From Deltaproteobacteria bacterium (GTDB lineage Bacteria > Desulfobacterota > BSN033 > UBA1163): 51,263 nt of DNA. Position numbers and translations under genes: made by a program. Positions within the stretch are counted from its first letter, which is position 1. Each line of letters opens with the position of its first letter. Shown piece after piece: positions 4,915 through 32,781 of this stretch. The notes beneath the pieces were generated by a model that was given only the letters and a program-made list of their open reading frames with translations, had not been told where the DNA came from and ran no database searches. Where the stretch lies: NCBI GenBank assembly GCA_018333535.1, contig JAGXTA010000121.1:1-51263 (forward strand), written 5' to 3'.

Positions 4915-7900
4915 TTGAAATCCACATCGAACGAAACAGGATCTGTGCTCGTGGTCGGCGGCGGCATCGCAGGCATCCAGGCCAGCCTTGATCTGGCGGA
5001 GTCAGGATACAAAGTTTATTTAGTTGAGAAGTCTCCTGCTATTGGTGGGACCATGCCCCAGCTCGACAAAACCTTCCCTACGAACGACTGCTCCATGTGT
5101 ATCTTATCCCCAAAGCTTGTGGAATGCGGGAGGCATCTCAACATCGAGGTCATCACGAATGCAGAGGTATTAGATATTAAGGGGCAACCGGGGAATTTTG
5201 TCGTTTCCGTTAAGAAACGAGCGAGGTATGTGGACGAAACCCTCTGTACCGGGTGCGGCATCTGTCAGGAGAAATGCCCTTCCAAAACAGGAAGTGAATT
5301 TAATCGCGGTCTGAGTCAAAGGAAAGCGATCTACATTCCCTATGCCCAGGCCGTGCCCAATGTGCCGGCCATCGACCGGGAAATCTGTATCTACTTTGAG
5401 AAAGGTAAATGCCGAGTCTGCGAGAAACTCTGTGAGTCAAAGGCAATCGACTTCACGCAGACCGATCAACTGCTGGAGATCGAGGCGGGCTCGGTTATCC
5501 TCTGCCCTGGTTTTCAAGAGTTTGATACCAGCATTTTTACTCATTATGGTCACAGGGTCTTTCCGAATGTGGTCACGAGCATTGAGTTTGAAAGGATGTT
5601 GAGTCCCTCAGGCCCATTACAAGGCCATCTCATCAGACCCTCCGATCAGAAAGTCCCGGAACGTATCGCATGGATTCAATGCGTGGGTTCACGGGACATC
5701 CACCTTGCCAAGAATGCCTACTGTTCATCGGTTTGCTGCACATACGCCATTAAAGAAGCGGTCGTTGCCAAAGAACATTGCCTGACACCTCTTGAGACGA
5801 CGATTTTTCTTATCGATCTCAGGACCTTTGGAAAAGGGTTTGAAAGGTACTATGAGAGAGCCAAGAAAGACCATGGGGTCCGATTCGTTCGAGCCAGAGT
5901 CACTACCCTCTATCAGGAAAGCGATGGGGACCTGACCCTCAGATACTTCGATGAGGATCGGATCAAAGAGGAGAGATTCAGCATGGTTGTTCTCTCCGTG
6001 GGACTTCGGCAACCCGAGGAGACGAAAGCCCTGGCAGGGAGACTCGGGTTGAAACTCAATGACTATGGGTTCTGTGAGACCGGAGATTTTTCGACAGTGG
6101 CCGCTTCAAAGCCTGGGATTTTCACAGCCGGGGCCTTTAGTGGTCCAAAGGATATTCCTGAGACCGTGATGGAGGCAAGCGCCGCTGCAAGCGAAGCCTC
6201 TTCCCTCATCTCGGCGTCAAGGCACAGTCTCACCACTGAAAAACAATATCCGCCTGAAAGGGAGGTGACCGGAGAGCAACCAAGGATCGGGGTCTTTGTT
6301 TGCCATTGTGGCATCAATATCGGTGGAGTGTTGAATGTCCCCAGCCTTAAGGAGTATGCCCGGTCTCTGCCCGACGTGGTCTTTGCTGATGAGACCCTCT
6401 TTGCTTGTTCGCAGGATAATCAGCAGAGGATCAAAGAAGTTATTAGAGAACATCGCCTGAACCGGCTGCTTGTTGCCGCCTGCACTCCACGAACCCATGA
6501 GCCTCTGTTTCGGGAGACGCTCAGGGAGGCCGGGCTCAATAGATACATCTTCGAAATGGCCAATATTCGCGAGCATTGCTCCTGGGTCCACATGAATGAA
6601 CCGGAGAAGGCGACAGAGAAAGCCAGGGACCTGATAAGAATGGCGGTTGCCAAGGCGATGCTGATCGAACCTTTGAGCCAGATGTCCCTTGAAGTCAATC
6701 ATACTGCCCTTGTCGTTGGAGGCGGAATCTCTGGGATGGCGGGCGCCCTTCAGCTTGCGAAGCAGGGGTTTGAGGTCCATCTCATAGAGCGGACTTCGGA
6801 GTTAGGCGGCATCGCCAGAAGGCACCATCATACCCTTGAGGGTAAGGATGTTCAAGCTTATTTGAATAAACTGATCGCTGAAGTGTCTCGAGAGCCGCTC
6901 ATCCATATCCACAGGGAGACCGAAATTCAGGGGGTCAGCGGGCATATCGGGAACTTTAAGACGGCATTGAGGGATCAGTCAAAAGGGGAAGTCAAGGAGA
7001 TTGAACACGGAATCACGATCCTTGCAACAGGCGGGGATGTTTATAAACCGAATGAATACCTTTACGGGGAAGACCCAAGAGTCTTCACCGTGCTCGATCT
7101 AAATGACGAAATTGCAAAAGGGAATCCTTCTGTCGTGGGAAGCAAGAACTTAGTGATGATCCAATGTGTGGGGTCTCGAGAGCCGGAAAGGCTCTACTGC
7201 AGTCGGGTTTGTTGCGGTGGATCGATCAAGACGGCCCTCAAATTGAAAGAAATCAACCCGGAAATGAATATCTATATCCTCTATCGGGACATCCGCACCT
7301 ATGGATTCAAGGAGCCCTATTATCAGGAGGCAAGAGACAAAGGGGTTACCTTTATCCGTTATGACATAGAGGATAAGCCTTTCGTGGAAGCGGTCAAAGA
7401 AGGCGATAAGGATGTCCTCAAGGTTAGCCTTAAAGATCCTATCCTGGGCGAGCCGGTCTTTATTGATGCAGATATCATAGGCCTGGCCGCTGCCATTGTT
7501 CCTGCATCCGGAAGGGATTCGCTTGCTCAGTTCTTCAAGGTCCCCTTGAACGAAGATGGTTTCTTTCTCGAGGCCCATATCAAGCTTCGTCCTGTGGAGT
7601 TTCCAACAGAAGGGGTCTTCGTCTGCGGGCTGGCCCATTATCCAAAAACGATCGAGGAAAGCATCGTTCAGGCCCAGGCCGCATCTGCCAAAGCTGCCAC
7701 GATCCTTTCAAGGGAGAGCATCGAACTGGAAGGGAATATCTCTCAAGTGGTGGATGAGAATTGCGACGGGTGTGCCTACTGCGTTGATCCCTGTCCTTAC
7801 AAGGCGATCATCCTGCTCGAATATATGAGGGAGGGGGCCGTCAAGAAAACGGTTGAAGTCAATGAAGCGGCCTGCAAGGGTTGCGGCTGCTGTCAGGCCA

Positions 7901-7986
7901 CCTGTCCGAAGAAGGGGATCTTCGTGAGGGGGTTTAAGCTGGAGCAGATTGGAGCGCAAGTGGATGCCGCTCTGGGGGTGACGTAA
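4915..7986 (+). CDS. hdrA: HdrA-like iron-sulfur flavoprotein (two-module)
   Basis: The product is a 1023-aa, double-length HdrA. Residues 1-440 form a first FAD module (VLVVGGGIAGIQASLDLA) with an inserted ferredoxin (CTGCGICQEKC near 111-121). Residues from about 460 form a classic HdrA with VGVFVCHCGINIGG, a second dinucleotide fold (ALVVGGGISGMAGALQLA) and a C-terminal 2[4Fe-4S] ferredoxin (CDGCAYCVDPCPYKAI near 951, then CKGCGCCQATCPKKG). HdrA is the FAD subunit that splits electrons in Hdr complexes. The start is TTG with a GGAG about 9 nt upstream; no better ATG fits. The codon at 6307-6309 is TGT (Cys), where the paralogue at 18143 has UGA. It is followed by hdrC and hdrB, so a full soluble HdrABC sits inside the dsr array. 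Confidence 0.92.
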   Translation: MKSTSNETGSVLVVGGGIAGIQASLDLAESGYKVYLVEKSPAIGGTMPQLDKTFPTNDCSMCILSPKLVECGRHLNIEVITNAEVLDIKGQPGNFVVSVKKRARYVDETLCTGCGICQEKCPSKTGSEFNRGLSQRKAIYIPYAQAVPNVPAIDREICIYFEKGKCRVCEKLCESKAIDFTQTDQLLEIEAGSVILCPGFQEFDTSIFTHYGHRVFPNVVTSIEFERMLSPSGPLQGHLIRPSDQKVPERIAWIQCVGSRDIHLAKNAYCSSVCCTYAIKEAVVAKEHCLTPLETTIFLIDLRTFGKGFERYYERAKKDHGVRFVRARVTTLYQESDGDLTLRYFDEDRIKEERFSMVVLSVGLRQPEETKALAGRLGLKLNDYGFCETGDFSTVAASKPGIFTAGAFSGPKDIPETVMEASAAASEASSLISASRHSLTTEKQYPPEREVTGEQPRIGVFVCHCGINIGGVLNVPSLKEYARSLPDVVFADETLFACSQDNQQRIKEVIREHRLNRLLVAACTPRTHEPLFRETLREAGLNRYIFEMANIREHCSWVHMNEPEKATEKARDLIRMAVAKAMLIEPLSQMSLEVNHTALVVGGGISGMAGALQLAKQGFEVHLIERTSELGGIARRHHHTLEGKDVQAYLNKLIAEVSREPLIHIHRETEIQGVSGHIGNFKTALRDQSKGEVKEIEHGITILATGGDVYKPNEYLYGEDPRVFTVLDLNDEIAKGNPSVVGSKNLVMIQCVGSREPERLYCSRVCCGGSIKTALKLKEINPEMNIYILYRDIRTYGFKEPYYQEARDKGVTFIRYDIEDKPFVEAVKEGDKDVLKVSLKDPILGEPVFIDADIIGLAAAIVPASGRDSLAQFFKVPLNEDGFFLEAHIKLRPVEFPTEGVFVCGLAHYPKTIEESIVQAQAASAKAATILSRESIELEGNISQVVDENCDGCAYCVDPCPYKAIILLEYMREGAVKKTVEVNEAACKGCGCCQATCPKKGIFVRGFKLEQIGAQVDAALGVT

Positions 7987-16995: not shown

Positions 16996-18156
16996 ATGAC
17001 TAACGTTTGCGATCCCACACTGCTCGCTGAGGTTCGGAAGTATGGATCATTCGATGTGTCGGGATGTTTCAACTGCGGAAGCTGCACACTGGGCTGTGTC
17101 TTGTCCACGGATCATGCTTCTTTTCCCCGGAGACAGACCCGGCAGGTGCTCATGGGCTTGAAACAGATGGTGCTTTCAAGTCTCGAACCGTGGATGTGCC
17201 ATGACTGCGGGGATTGTTCCACCGTCTGTCCACGGGAGACGAAACCCCGCGATGGCATGGCGACCTTGCGGCGTTACATTGCATCCCATTATGACTGGAC
17301 AGGGATCACAGCCAAAATCAATAGCTCAAAAATCCGGTACATCGGCTCTCTTTCCTTCGTAGCTGTGCTGGTCCTCTTCCTGGCGGTGGCCTACCATGTT
17401 TATATGGTTAAGATGCCTCTTTCTGATTTCGCCTCAACCCCCATGCCTCTCAAGCACATGTTCCCCATGATGACCCACTTTACCCTGGCGGTCGTCTTGC
17501 TTCCCTTGTTTTTCCTCCTCTCCTTCGCCGTACGCATGTACCGGTTCACAATGCGTGGAACCGAGAAGATGACCATGGCTCCCAACCTCTATTTCACGGA
17601 AGCGAAGACCTTCCTGTACCATCTGACCACCCATAAAAAAATGGGAGAATGCCATGAGAAGAGCCGTTGGCCGAAGCACCTCGTTCTGGCCTGGGGAGTC
17701 ATGATCAAGCTCTCTCTTCTGGTCTTTGCCCTGTCATGGTTCCAGACCGACAAGCTCTATCAGATCTCTCATCCCCAGCGGTGGATCGGTTACCTCATCA
17801 CCGCCTTTATCATCTATGGTGCCGCAGATATCCTGGTGAGCCGTTTGAGAAAGAAAAAAGAGGTCTACAAGTCTTCTGACATGTGGGATTGGACCTTTCC
17901 GATCCTGCTTCTTGCCGCAGCTATCAGCGGCATCGTCGTCCATATCGTCCGGTATGCTGGGTTTGAGCTTGCGACCCACTATGCCTATGCCGTTCATATC
18001 ATGATCTCTGTTCCCCTACTGGTAATTGAGATGCCGTTCGGGAAATGGACCCATATGATTTATCGTCCCATGGCTCTTTACTTTCAATCGATAAAAGAAA
18101 AGGCGCTGCAGAAACAATGGTCCGTGCAGGGAGTTCCCAGCCATGTTGCCTCATGA
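16996..18156 (+). CDS. QmoC-like HdrC/cytochrome b fusion subunit
   Basis: The 386-aa product joins an HdrC-like ferredoxin (CFNCGSCTLGCVL near residue 24, CHDCGDCSTVCPRE near 69) to a membrane cytochrome-b-like domain. Hydrophobic spans include VAVLVLFLAVAYHVYM, LAVVLLPLFFLLSFAV and LLLAAAISGIVVHIVRYAG. This is the architecture and length of QmoC, the quinone-interacting subunit partnered with HdrA-like QmoA and QmoB. A GTG at 16993 is one codon upstream, but the ATG at 16996 with CGGAG before it is preferred. It overlaps the giant hdrA by 14 bp, so the two are probably partners. It may link that HdrA to menaquinone. Confidence 0.87.
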   Translation: MTNVCDPTLLAEVRKYGSFDVSGCFNCGSCTLGCVLSTDHASFPRRQTRQVLMGLKQMVLSSLEPWMCHDCGDCSTVCPRETKPRDGMATLRRYIASHYDWTGITAKINSSKIRYIGSLSFVAVLVLFLAVAYHVYMVKMPLSDFASTPMPLKHMFPMMTHFTLAVVLLPLFFLLSFAVRMYRFTMRGTEKMTMAPNLYFTEAKTFLYHLTTHKKMGECHEKSRWPKHLVLAWGVMIKLSLLVFALSWFQTDKLYQISHPQRWIGYLITAFIIYGAADILVSRLRKKKEVYKSSDMWDWTFPILLLAAAISGIVVHIVRYAGFELATHYAYAVHIMISVPLLVIEMPFGKWTHMIYRPMALYFQSIKEKALQKQWSVQGVPSHVAS

Positions 18157-21100
18157 CACGCAAGGTAAAAAAGTTGGCGCCGTACTGATCGTCGGCGGTG
18201 GAATTGGAGGGATGCAAGCGGCCCTGGATCTAGCCGCATGCGGCATCAAGGTCTATCTTGTAGATAACAAGCCCTCCATCGGCGGAGTGATGGCTCAACT
18301 GGATAAGACCTTCCCCACGAATGATTGCGCCATGTGCACCCAGGCGCCGAGGCTTGTTGAAATCGGCAGGCACAAGGATATCGAACTCATCACGATGAGT
18401 GAAGTGGAACGCGTGGAGGGCGAGCCGGGGAACTTCCGTATCACCCTCAAGAAAAGACCGCGGTATGTGGATATCAACAAATGCACCGGGTGTGGTCTCT
18501 GTTTTCCCTCTTGTCCGGTGGTCATGAAGAACGAGTATGATCTCGGGCTTTCCGACCGGAAGGCCATCTCCATCCTCTTTCCGCAGGCCGTGCCGAACAA
18601 AGCCGCCATCGATAGGAGGGAGGAGCGGCCGTGCAAAGCTGCCTGTATGGACGCCTGCCCGATCCACACCAACGCGCTCGGCTATGTCAAGCTCATCGCC
18701 GAGGGAAAATTTAGGGAGGCGTATCAGCTGAATCGGGATGTCAATCCCCTTCCCTCTATCTGTGGCAAGGTGTGCTTTGCGCCCTGTGAGGAGGCATGCA
18801 ATCGGGGAGAGATGGACGAACCCATCGCGATCCGGCAACTGAAGATGTTCGTCTCCGATCTCGTGAATATCGACGAACTTCCTATCCCGCAAATCACAAA
18901 AACGGGTAAAAAGGTGGCCATTATCGGCGCCGGACCCGCGGGACTGGCCGCAGCCAATGATCTTTCTTTAGCAGGACATGAGGCGACTATCTTCGAAGCA
19001 AAACCCGAACCGGGCGGGATGCTTCGCTATGCGATCCCTGACTATCGTCTCCCTAAGGATGTCTTGCAGAAGGAGGTTAACTACATCCAACGCCTGGGGG
19101 TCGAGATCAAGACCGGGGTTGAGGTTGGCAAAGATATCTCCCTCGCCGAGATCCGGAAGAACCACGACGCTGTCTTCATCGGGGTTGGCGCACAGGGCGG
19201 CATGAAGCTGGAAATCGAAGGAGAAAGGCTGCCTGGAGTGACGGACGGAATTCGGTTTCTCCGAGATTTGGCTATGGGACAGAAGGTCCGGGTTGGAAAG
19301 AGGGTTGCCGTCATCGGGGGGGGGAATACGGCGATGGACTGTGCTCGGACAGCCAAACGTCTGGGCGGAGAGGACGTGAAGATCTTCTACCGCCGATCCC
19401 GCGCCGAAATGCCCGCTTCTGCGGAAGAAGTGGAGGCCCTTGAGAAAGAAGGGGTCCATATCGACTTCCTGACCACACCCCAACGGTTCCTTTCAGAGCG
19501 CGGAACCCTAACGAGAATGGAGTGTATTCGAATGAAACTCGGTGAGCCCGATGCTGGCTGCCGACGCCGTCCTGTTCCAATTCCTGGCTCAAATTTCACC
19601 GTGGTCGTCGATACAGCCATCGCTGCCCTTGGACAACACTTGGAGACCGATTTCGTAAAGGAACTGGGCCTTCCCCTCGGCAAGAACGGAACCATCGTAG
19701 CCGATCCAAAGACTGGGGGGACGAACATTGAGGGGATCTTTGCAGGTGGCGACGTGGTCACGGGAGCGGCCTTTGTAATTGATGCGATTGCGTTGGGAAA
19801 GAAGGCGGCTCGCTCCATCAATCGGTACCTTAAGAGCGAACCTATCGAAGTTCAGGAAGAGGAGAAGAAACCTCAAAAACTCACCCTGGACGAAGTCGCC
19901 CTCTTGAAAAGGCGCTTCCCAACGCTAAAGCGGATGGTCATGCGAGAAGAACCTGCGAAAAAGCGAATCACCGACTTCCGTGAGGTGGCCATTGGATTCA
20001 GTGGTGAGGAAGCCGTTAAAGAGGCCTTACGTTGCCTCGCAGGCCAGATCGAGGGATGTATTCTCTGCGGGGAGTGCGAAAGGCGCTGCGATGCAAAGGC
20101 CATCGATTACGTACAGAAAGAAGAAACGGTAGAATTGAATGTGGGCGCCATCGTTCTATCCCCTGGGTATGAGTCTTTTGATGCAAAAGGAAAACAGGAA
20201 CTGGGCTATGGCCGTTATGCGAATATCGTTAGCGCCCTTGAATTCGAAAGAATCCTTTCCGCCTCCGGCCCGTACTCCGGAAAAGTGCTGCGGCCTTCCG
20301 ATCAGAAGGCGCCGAAACGGATTGCCTTCATGCAGTGTGTCGGTTCCCGGGATGTGGAACGGGATTATTGCTCCTCCATCTGCTGTATGTACGCCACCAA
20401 GGAAGCCATCATCGCAAAGGAACATGTAGGAGAGGACCTCGATTGCGACATCTTCTTCATGGACATGCGAGCCTTCGGTAAAGGATTCGAGGCTTACTAC
20501 GAAAGGGCAAAGGAACTCGGTGTCAATTATATCCGTTGCCGTCCCGCCTCTGTGGAGGAGATTCCTGAAAGCAAGAACCTCTTGATTAAGTACCTCGTGG
20601 AGGATGAAAAGAAGGTCTCCCGTGAATACGACATGGTCGTCCTCTCTACGGGTGTCGCCCCCCCCCATTCTGCGATCAAGATTGGAAAAACCTTCGGGAT
20701 TGCCTTGAATAGGTTTAATTTCTGCCAGACCTCGATTTTTAAACCGGCAGAATCAATCCGCGAAGGGGTCTACGTGGCTGGGCCCTTTACAGAGCCCAAG
20801 GACATTCCAGAAACGGTGATGCAAGCATCGGCCGCTGCCTCAAAGGCGCTCTCCCTGTTGAAGGAAACAAGGGGCAGTCTCATCGTCCAGAAAGAATATC
20901 CTCCCGAGCGGGAAATCGCTGGCGAAGAACCCCGGGTAGGCGTATTCGTCTGCCACTGAGGGTCGAACATTGCGGGCTTCGTGAAAGTCCCTGACGTCGT
21001 TGGGTATGCGAAAACCCTCCCCAATGTCGTTTACGCCGAGAACAATCTTTACACCTGCTCGAACGATACTCAGGAAAGGATCAAGGAGAAGATCAAGGAA

Positions 21101-22630
21101 CATCAATTGAACCGTGTCGTCGTGGCTTCCTGCACACCCAGAACCCATGAACCCCTCTTCCGAAATACCATCCGGGAGGCGGGTTTGAACCCCTATCTTT
21201 TTGAGATGGCGAATATCAGAGACCAGTGCTCCTGGGTGCACATGCATGAATTTGAAAAGGCGACGATCAAGTCAAGGGACCTCGTCCGAATGGCGGTGGC
21301 CAAGGCTCGATTGCTCGAGCCTCTTCAAAGACAGTCTGTTCCAATCGTGAAGTCGGCTCTTGTCATCGGCGGCGGCCTTTCCGGGATGACCTCCGCCCTC
21401 GAAATCGCCAATCAAGGCTTCGATGTCTACCTGGTGGAACGGGAAAAGGAGATCGGCGGCAACCTCAGGCGCATCCATTACCTGCTGAACGGAGAAAAAC
21501 CCCAGCAGGAACTCAAGACCCTGATAACAAAGGTGAAAGAGAACGACAGAATCCATCTTTTCACGGAAGCGAAGATTGAAACGATTGAGGGCTCCATCGG
21601 AAACTTCAAAACAAAGATCGCCATCAACGGAGATTCGAGGGAAATCGAGCACGGGTCAGTCATCGTCGCCACCGGCGCGAAGGAATACAACCCCACCGAG
21701 TATCTCTACGGGCAGCATGAACGGGTTCTCACCCAACTCGAATTGGAGCAGCGGTTGGCGGCAGGGGATGGGTTATTGAAGTCCATTGGCGGAAATCCCA
21801 GGACAGTGGTCATGATTCAGTGCGTGGGCTCCCGTGATGATGAGAGGCCCTACTGCTCGAGACTGTGCTGTACTCATGCGGTGAAGAATGCCTTAAAGTT
21901 GAAGGAGCTTTCCCCCACAACAAATGTCTATGTGCTCTACCGGGACATCCGGACGTACGGGTTCAAAGAGAGCTATTACACGGAAGCGAGACAGAAAGGC
22001 GTGGTCTTCATCCGATATGACAAGGACCAGAAGCCCGGGGTCTCTAAGAACCACGATGGGTTGAGGGTGGATGTCTACGATCAAACGCTGGGGATTCCCG
22101 TGGAGATCGCAACCGATCTTGTCGTTCTCTCGACAGGGGTCGTTCCTCATGAGGATAATAAGACGATTGCACAGCTCTTGAAAGTCCCCATCAACAGCGA
22201 GGGGTTCTTCCTCGAGGCCCATATGAAACTGCGGCCGGTCGATTTTGCCACCGACGGGGTCTTCTTGGCGGGGCTGGCCCATTATCCAAAAACGATTGAG
22301 GAAAGCATCATTCAGGCCCAAGCTGCATCTGCCAAAGCTGCTACGATCCTTTCAAGGGAGAGCATCGAACTGGAAGGGAATATCTCCCAAGTAGCGGATG
22401 AGAATTGCGACGGGTGTGCATACTGCGTCGATCCCTGTCCTTACAAGGCGATCACCCTGCTCGAATATATGAGGGAGGGGGCCATCAAGAAAACGGTTGA
22501 GGTCAACGAAACGGTCTGCAAGGGTTGCGGCTGCTGTCAGGCCACCTGTCCGAAGAAAGGGATCTTCGTGAGAGGATTTAAGCTGGAACAGATTGGAGCG
22601 CAAGTCGATGCTGCTTTGGGGGTGACGTAA
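18143..22630 (+). CDS. hdrA: giant HdrA with GltD-like insertion and selenocysteine
   Basis: This is one 1495-aa protein if the in-frame TGA at 20957-20959 (codon 939) is read as selenocysteine; the frame is open on both sides and domain homology continues across it. Residues 1-155 are an HdrA FAD segment with a ferredoxin (CTGCGLCFPSCP near 114). Residues about 158-590 are a GltD/NfnB-like domain: Fe-S ligands in CKAACMDACPIH and CGKVCFAPCEEAC, FAD site VAIIGAGPAGLAAA, NAD(P) site VAVIGGGNTAMDCARTA. The FAD segment resumes near 637 (CILCGECERRC). A second HdrA module starts near 930 with VGVFVCHUGSN, and the protein ends with CDGCAYC and CKGCGCC ferredoxins. The upstream paralogue has Cys at the UGA position. 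It overlaps the QmoC-like gene and is coupled to mvhD (TAATG). Confidence 0.88.
20957..20990 (+). promoter_or_regulatory. UGA(Sec) codon with SECIS-like hairpin
   Basis: The UGA at 20957-20959 is followed by a hairpin: GGGCTT (20974-20979), loop CGTGA, AAGTCC (20985-20990), 6 bp with one G-U. The loop contains GU and starts 20 nt after the UGA, within the distance seen for bacterial SECIS elements, which lie in the coding sequence right after the UGA. It supports recoding rather than termination. Confidence 0.7.
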
Positions 22631-22650
22631 TGGACGAGAAATTTGAACCG
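22272..22650 (+). repeat. hdrA 3' tract, copy 2 (reaching into mvhD)
   Basis: This is the partner of 7628-8006. It encodes the HdrA C-terminal ferredoxin, the stop, and the start of mvhD. Here mvhD continues intact, so this copy is the better candidate for the original arrangement. Confidence 0.85.
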
Positions 22651-23046
22651 TTGATCATCGGATTCTGTTGCAACTGGTGCTCTTATGCCGGAGCTGACTT
22701 GGCAGGCGTATCCAGGATCCAGTATCCGACCAGCCTAAGAATCATCCGGGTGATGTGCTCGGGCATGATCCATCCAAATCTGGTCGTCGATGCCCTGACA
22801 AAGGGGGGCGACGGTGTTTTAATCTGCGGATGTCACCCTGGAGACTGCCACTATCAAGACGGAAATCTGAAAGCAGAGAAGAGGGCCGAAGCCATCACAC
22901 TCATGCTGGAGGATTTTGGCATTGAGCCTGAACGATTTCGATTGGAATGGGTCTCCGCCGCTGAAGGCGCCAGGTTTGCTCAGGTGGTTAAAGAGTTTAC
23001 GGAACAGATTATAAACCTCGGTGCAAATCCAAACAGAAGTGGATAA
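22630..23046 (+). CDS. mvhD: MvhD, [2Fe-2S] adaptor between hydrogenase and HdrA
   Basis: MvhD passes electrons from the MvhAG hydrogenase to HdrA. The 138-aa product has the family cysteines in GFCCNWCSYAGAD, MCSGMI and CGCHPGDCHYQDGN. Its ATG overlaps the stop of the giant hdrA (TAATG), so expression is coupled. Completing the MvhA-G-D set, it shows that the hydrogenase is meant to dock on an HdrA. Because a ghost of its first codons follows the other hdrA too, both hdrA genes may once have had an mvhD partner. Confidence 0.94.
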   Translation: MDEKFEPLIIGFCCNWCSYAGADLAGVSRIQYPTSLRIIRVMCSGMIHPNLVVDALTKGGDGVLICGCHPGDCHYQDGNLKAEKRAEAITLMLEDFGIEPERFRLEWVSAAEGARFAQVVKEFTEQIINLGANPNRSG

Positions 23047-32014: not shown

Positions 32015-32638
32015 TCAATGGTTACGTTTTTTAGCGCCGAAATTTATTAGGAATTGTTCCAGATCTTCATAAGGTTGAAATCCAACGGCTGTACGGTGAT
32101 TGACCAAAAAGGTTGGGACTCCTGTGATTCCAAGGGCGCGTGAACGAGACCAGTCGGAATCCACTGCCTCCTTAAAGGTTCTCAATTCAAGAACAGATCG
32201 TGCCTCCTTGTCTGAAAGGCCTATCGATTTTGCCAAATCGACTATTTCGTTAACCTTGCCAATATTCTTACCCTCCACAAAATAGCCTCGAAAAACAGCT
32301 TCGTGGAATTCGTCTCCCCTTCCCTTCGATTCTGCCCACTTTGCCAATTCCTGAGCAAGACGGCTATTGTAAGTCTTTTTTCGCTCACCCATAGGCAAAC
32401 CTAATTCACCCGCCACTTGCTTCAACCGGGTCATGATCTTCTTAATGTCTTTGAGTTGTCCGGCAAAAAGTTCTTCAAGAGTGAGTCCCTCCACAGGCGT
32501 CTCGGGATGAAGAGGAAAAGCCGCCCAACGAACTTCGATGTCATAATTCTTTCGCAATTGCTCAATACGCACGGTACTGAAATAACACCAGGGTCAAACA
32601 TAATCGGAGAATATCTCCAGAATCACCGGCTCATTCAT
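32015..32638 (-). CDS. FrnE/DsbA-type oxidoreductase with UPWC active site
   Basis: The frame that continues as MRIEQLRKNYD can be extended through a TGA at 32596-32594. The full product is 207 aa and starts MNEPVILEIFSDYVUPWCYF. FrnE-type DsbA-family proteins have DxxCPWCY at exactly this place, so the UGA replaces the first active-site Cys with selenocysteine. AAAAGGAGA lies 6-7 nt before the ATG at 32638, which supports the upstream start. The cis-proline motif GITGVPTFLVN is near the C-terminus. There is no signal peptide, so it acts in the cytoplasm, probably in thiol-disulfide exchange. I see no convincing SECIS hairpin by eye. Confidence 0.85.
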
Positions 32639-32781
32639 ATGTTTCTCCTTTTCGGCTCCACTCAACAGGGCCAACTTTTTTTAGGGAGGATACCTCCCTT
32701 CCAGTTAACCCCCTGTTTAAGAAGCTGACTGAATAATGAAAGCACCCAAGATACTTGTACTTCCCGGAGAGGTTCACCCCG

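Follow-up and report, generated by a model that had tools for sequence, protein, structure and literature searches.

The window, that is, the whole stretch of 51,263 nucleotides analysed here, contains on its minus strand a gene for a FrnE/DsbA-type protein (positions 32015..32638), assigned from its translation, a match to Pfam PF01323 (DSBA; 1.7e-36) and structural homology to FrnE. Around the start, the minus strand reads GAAAAGGAGAAACAT ATG AAT GAG CCG GTG ATT CTG GAG ATA TTC TCC GAT TAT GTT TGA CCC TGG TGT TAT TTC. The ATG (32638-32636), preceded by AAAAGGAGAAACAT, opens a run of 14 codons that ends at a TGA (32596-32594), and CCC TGG TGT follows. When this TGA is read as selenocysteine (Sec), the frame continues from ATG 32638 to the TGA stop codon at 32015-32017 (minus strand) and gives a protein of 207 residues with one Sec (U15), beginning MNEPVILEIFSDYVUPWCYFS. 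The in-frame UGA (32594..32596, minus strand) takes position 1 of a UPWC active site, as judged from the aligned TGA or Cys codons of homologues, and direct reading revealed a Shine-Dalgarno sequence, GGAG, at 32645..32648 on the same strand, 6 nt before the ATG. A preliminary description of this DNA had placed the TGA at the first Cys of a CPWC motif and had proposed that reading through it restores a full N-terminus. The reading frame and the homologue alignment confirmed this.

Without read-through, the mechanical list of open reading frames (ORFs) has an ORF of 185 residues that opens at GTG 32572, 3' of the active site. This ORF speaks for the TGA being a true stop, the gene then being either a pseudogene or one that starts at the GTG and encodes a product without the active site. 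However, the same TGA occurs in about 130 homologues, and a product begun at the GTG would be without strand 1 as well as the active-site motif. Of 62 Sec homologues, 40 have a Gly codon where this gene has GTG 32572; therefore, this start is not conserved, and we rejected it. No purine-rich ribosome-binding site was seen upstream of it when the sequence was read directly, so the start after the TGA with a good ribosome-binding site, which the preliminary description had named as a ground for abandoning the Sec reading, was not found. Moreover, upstream of the TGA the amino acids are conserved but not the codons: Phe at -5 was present in 50 of 50 genes, encoded by TTT in 29 and by TTC in 21. 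This pattern of protein constraint on the codons 5' of the TGA indicates that the upstream segment is translated, and we consider a true stop very improbable.

The TGA is widely conserved among homologues. Within the order to which the window belongs, the gene was present in 7 of 17 genomes, with exactly one internal TGA in all seven copies. Across 395 genomes of the phylum, each of the 46 best-scoring matches contained one TGA, and the first match without it appeared at 42% identity. From the phylum sample, 72 loci were fetched, of which 71 could be aligned at this codon (L080 has unread bases there); TGA stood exactly at the first Cys of CP[WFY]C in 62 of them and a Cys codon in 9. A second set comprised 80 loci with named records from many bacterial phyla (Deltaproteobacteria, Alpha-, Beta- and Gammaproteobacteria, Acidobacteria, Rokubacteria, Planctomycetes, SAR324, Nitrospirae and others); TGA was found in 73 of 79 and Cys in 6, the remaining locus (L114, also U by eye) having missed the motif pattern. 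Some records of the second set are genomes of the first, and recognised duplicates were excluded from pooled counts. Because the TGA is kept from 93% to about 30% protein identity, chance is excluded. An alignment with CPWC FrnE homologues, proposed earlier as a check, placed the TGA on the first Cys of CP[WF]C throughout. The fragmentation of the source assembly (192 contigs) would be the argument for a sequencing or assembly error that turned TGC or TGT into TGA. Yet TGA is found at this codon in independent genomes from many assemblies, which already refutes such an error, and a conserved hairpin (described below) accompanies the TGA and is missing from Cys forms; we regard this explanation as vanishingly improbable.

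The machinery for decoding Sec is encoded in the genome. One tRNA-Sec scored above the Rfam cut-off (contig C36, 76.5 bits) and was confirmed by ARAGORN with anticodon TCA (tRNA-Sec(UCA)), and selA (contig C12, 627 bits), selB (contig C14, 368 bits) and selD (contig C69, 391 bits) were detected as well. All four of selA, selB, selC and selD, whose joint presence marks a genome with bacterial selenoproteins, were thus found, and the case that the preliminary description had named as overturning its reading, a genome without selB or selC, does not apply. The selD gene (L084, C69:3542-4468) has one in-frame TGA of its own, in AAG GCG GGT TGA GCC TCA, and the selenophosphate synthetase of this genome is probably itself a selenoprotein. 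Among 25 genomes checked, selB was above cut-off in 24 and tRNA-Sec in 23. The genome with neither above cut-off (G049) has a homologue with CPFC (L063). In another (G007), the Sec form and selB were present but the draft assembly, 93% complete, yielded no tRNA-Sec; we took this as an assembly gap. UGA is a sense codon in some bacterial lineages, and here too it might stand for an amino acid other than Sec, in the way that it encodes Trp or Gly elsewhere. However, the TGA aligns with Cys rather than with Trp or Gly, TGA terminates genes in this genome, including this one, and tRNA-Sec, SelA, SelB and SelD are all encoded; a reading other than Sec is exceedingly improbable.

Downstream of the UGA lies the apical hairpin of a bacterial SECIS element, CAGUAC-CGUGC-GUAUUG (32563..32579, minus strand; loop 32569-32573), at nt 15-31 after the UGA. 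Its 6-bp stem is formed by nt 15-20 and 26-31, and its 5-nt loop (nt 21-25) has G at position 2. The published model of the bacterial SECIS describes a stem of 4-16 bp and a small apical loop in which one of the first two bases is G, at a distance of 16-37 nt from the UGA (PMC13188914). With a 6-bp stem, a 5-nt loop, G at position 2 and a UGA-loop distance of 20 nt, the hairpin agrees with each of these constraints. Folding of the 63 nt around this UGA as a single sequence was no better than shuffles (z +0.72) and hence uninformative; therefore, a comparative test was used instead. In 50 UPWC genes, 93.7% of the core pairs were formed, as against 46% in 9 Cys homologues. When the pairing partner was moved by 1-6 nt, 13-51% of pairs formed, and synonymous recoding with each gene's own codon usage gave an expectation of 55.0 +/- 2.0%. 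Permutation of synonymous codons within columns reached at most 90.0%, and the observed value was attained in 0 of 1000 trials; this control tests covariation as such, and sequence relatedness inflates its result.

Pooling of the two sets gave 127 Sec genes, of which 94 formed all six pairs, 32 formed five and one formed three, while none of the 15 Cys genes formed more than four. G was at loop position 1 or 2 in 126 of the 127 Sec genes. L040 appears to be the exception; judged visually, a stem moved over by a single base (GCACC/GGUGC, loop AGGCG) fits there. Two-sided compensatory changes were present in 31 of the 127 Sec genes at pair 16-30, in 30 at pair 18-28 and in 12 at pair 20-26. The preliminary description had seen no clear SECIS hairpin by eye and had suggested a search downstream of the UGA. 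That statement is corrected here: comparison across homologues makes a conserved hairpin clear, all but one of the 127 Sec genes forming at least five of its six pairs. The UP[FY]C genes (L061-L079) make up a second, deeper FrnE-like clade in which Sec and Cys forms are mixed; their SECIS position is that of the UPWC genes, and their loop is mostly different (GGGxx). The permutation control was not exceeded in this group (268 of 1000 trials), because it is small and uniform.

A second in-frame UGA of the window (20957..20959, plus strand) lies in a separate, HdrA-like gene (18143-22630) within the motif VFVCHUGSN, and supports the reading of the first. A paralogue at 4915-7986 has Cys instead of Sec (VFVCHCGIN). 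The HdrA hairpin, GGGCUU-CGUGA-AAGUCC, is spaced from its UGA exactly like that of the FrnE gene, and its loop, CGUGA, is near-identical. The HdrA-like Sec gene is of a known selenoprotein type (NF040770), with a fold and function unrelated to those of the FrnE-type protein. The earlier argument that two UGAs at redox cysteines in one window support each other holds, as the UGA of the HdrA gene is likewise located at a redox Cys, with a hairpin that matches in geometry. An MvhD-like protein is encoded nearby (22630-23046, plus strand) with FCCNWC, which is a Cys form; in other organisms, proteins of this family contain Sec (CxxU).

The closest solved structures by sequence were those of Deinococcus radiodurans FrnE (E 1.5e-24) and also SCO1869 of Streptomyces. 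An AlphaFold model, built from a 13-sequence alignment with Cys substituted for Sec, had a mean pLDDT of 94.4 and placed residue 15 just before helix 16-31. It is at this position that thioredoxin folds typically carry the attacking thiol. The top fold matches were again D. radiodurans FrnE (DR_0659; PDB 5CNW, 5CO3, 5COH, 5CP1, 5XWH; TM 0.88/0.75, the former by query length; 30% identity) and SCO1869, followed by YjbH, DsbM, HCCA isomerases and kappa GST. The assignment to the FrnE/DsbA type made in the preliminary description thus agrees with both comparisons. D. radiodurans FrnE also has CP[WF]C at the equal place and is likewise predicted to be cytosolic. In contrast, the protein described here has Sec for the first Cys, lacks a C-terminal CXXXXC and is about 50 residues shorter. 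The active-site motif and Pro175 are invariant, in keeping with the FrnE subfamily of DsbA (cd03024, COG2761), which is recognised by a DsbA-like domain, a CP(W/F)C active site that may have Sec at its first Cys, and the Pro of the cis-Pro loop. No signal peptide was visible by reading at the N-terminus MNEPVILEIFSDYV, which runs straight into strand 1, consistent with the cytosolic location of that subfamily. The translation has no Cys after residue 18; CXXXXC is present in many FrnE members, though not all, and does not define the family, and FrnE of D. maricopensis and S. roseofulvus are also without it (PMC8945050). The sole NCBIfam family to appear was the DsbG-like (Rcas_1661) selenolipoprotein NF041057, which was rejected, as it matched only the C-terminal part with 39 bits against a curated cut-off of 190 bits.

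Taken together, the gene very probably encodes a cytosolic FrnE-type oxidoreductase of thioredoxin fold in which UGA codon 15 is decoded as Sec through a SECIS, and which likely acts as a disulfide reductase. Comparative genomics indicates that SelB and tRNA-Sec would decode the codon, guided by the SECIS within the coding sequence that starts 15 nt 3' of it. From the model and conservation, Sec15 at the N-terminus of the first helix would be the attacking residue, Cys18 would resolve the selenenylsulfide, and Pro175 of the GVP loop is expected beside the active site. For D. radiodurans FrnE, a role as cytosolic disulfide reductase has been proposed, with the C-terminal CXXXXC regenerating the active site (PMC8945050). 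From this proposal and the presence of Cys18 as the only Cys, we infer that the enzyme is a disulfide reductase passing through a selenenylsulfide intermediate, and that it most likely would reduce or exchange disulfides in the cytosol of an anaerobe. Because the protein has neither another Cys nor the C-terminal CXXXXC, an external donor, presumably thioredoxin- or glutathione-like, would have to reduce the enzyme. Gene neighbourhood gave no indication of partners, as it is not conserved: the genes flanking this one in the window reappear in three loci at most, a cluster of short-chain dehydrogenase-like ORFs was found in 20 loci, and a further cluster, also of 20, corresponds to the opposite strand of the gene itself.

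The Sec reading would stand equally if the enzyme were an oxidase, an isomerase or a metal-handling protein rather than a disulfide reductase. D. radiodurans FrnE has been tied to cadmium tolerance and is also described as an isomerase and chaperone (PMC8945050), and the fold is common to HCCA isomerase and kappa-class GST. However, the UxxC pair and the cytosolic location would favour reduction. A low reduction potential is expected of a selenenylsulfide, which would point the same way, and we think a function other than reduction unlikely, though by no means negligible.

In a tree built from 145 homologues after masking of the U/C column, the Sec/Cys label changed at least six times on well-supported branches, and eight times by parsimony; the direction of these changes depends on the root, which was placed by midpoint only. 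Cys forms inside the Sec clade were L106, the group of L120, L138, L148 and L163, the pair L057 and L060, and L121. The last, from a Desulfobacterales record, is nested among Sec forms and has a degraded stem (CATAAT/GCATTG), and looks like a replacement of Sec by Cys with a decayed hairpin. It is conceivable, at a little short of an even chance, that Sec is ancestral and dominant in the FrnE clade across many phyla and that Cys forms arose by repeated replacement with decay of the SECIS. If so, selenium chemistry would be the default of the family, pointing to a reaction for which Cys is poorly suited.

COG2761 is the FrnE group. A 'DsbA-like protein' of COG2761 with UXXC and bacterial SECIS elements was reported in the Sargasso Sea selenoproteome in 2005 (PMC1088965), which agrees with the earlier remark that UxxC DsbA-like selenoproteins are known. 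DsbA-like selenoproteins have since been reported in deltaproteobacteria and Desulfotomaculum (PMC1794560), DsbA 1 has been listed in marine metagenomes (PMC2398784), and a 2026 review includes 'DsbA-like protein form 1, PF01323, UxxC' (PMC13188914), for which NIP15863.1 is the published representative. The protein described here shares with form 1 the PF01323 domain, Sec as the first residue of UxxC, a bacterial SECIS whose small apical loop contains G, and an occurrence in deltaproteobacteria and marine bacteria; nothing distinguishing was found in this comparison with the family's published description. In the literature collection searched, no paper joined the name FrnE with selenoproteins and DsbA-like proteins, and applying this name here is therefore a clarification rather than a discovery. 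On the sequence evidence, the gene is an ordinary addition to a selenoprotein family whose first prediction dates from 2005, and its Sec reading is very well supported.

This reading corrects a likely misannotation, since a standard ORF call begins 3' of the active site and drops the catalytic residue. That Sec forms have the hairpin and Cys forms have lost it also makes this set a clean case in which comparison reveals a SECIS where the single sequence folds poorly. For the organism, deltaproteobacterium-like and anaerobic, it adds one enzyme to the selenoproteome, in a cytosol whose disulfide chemistry has been little studied.
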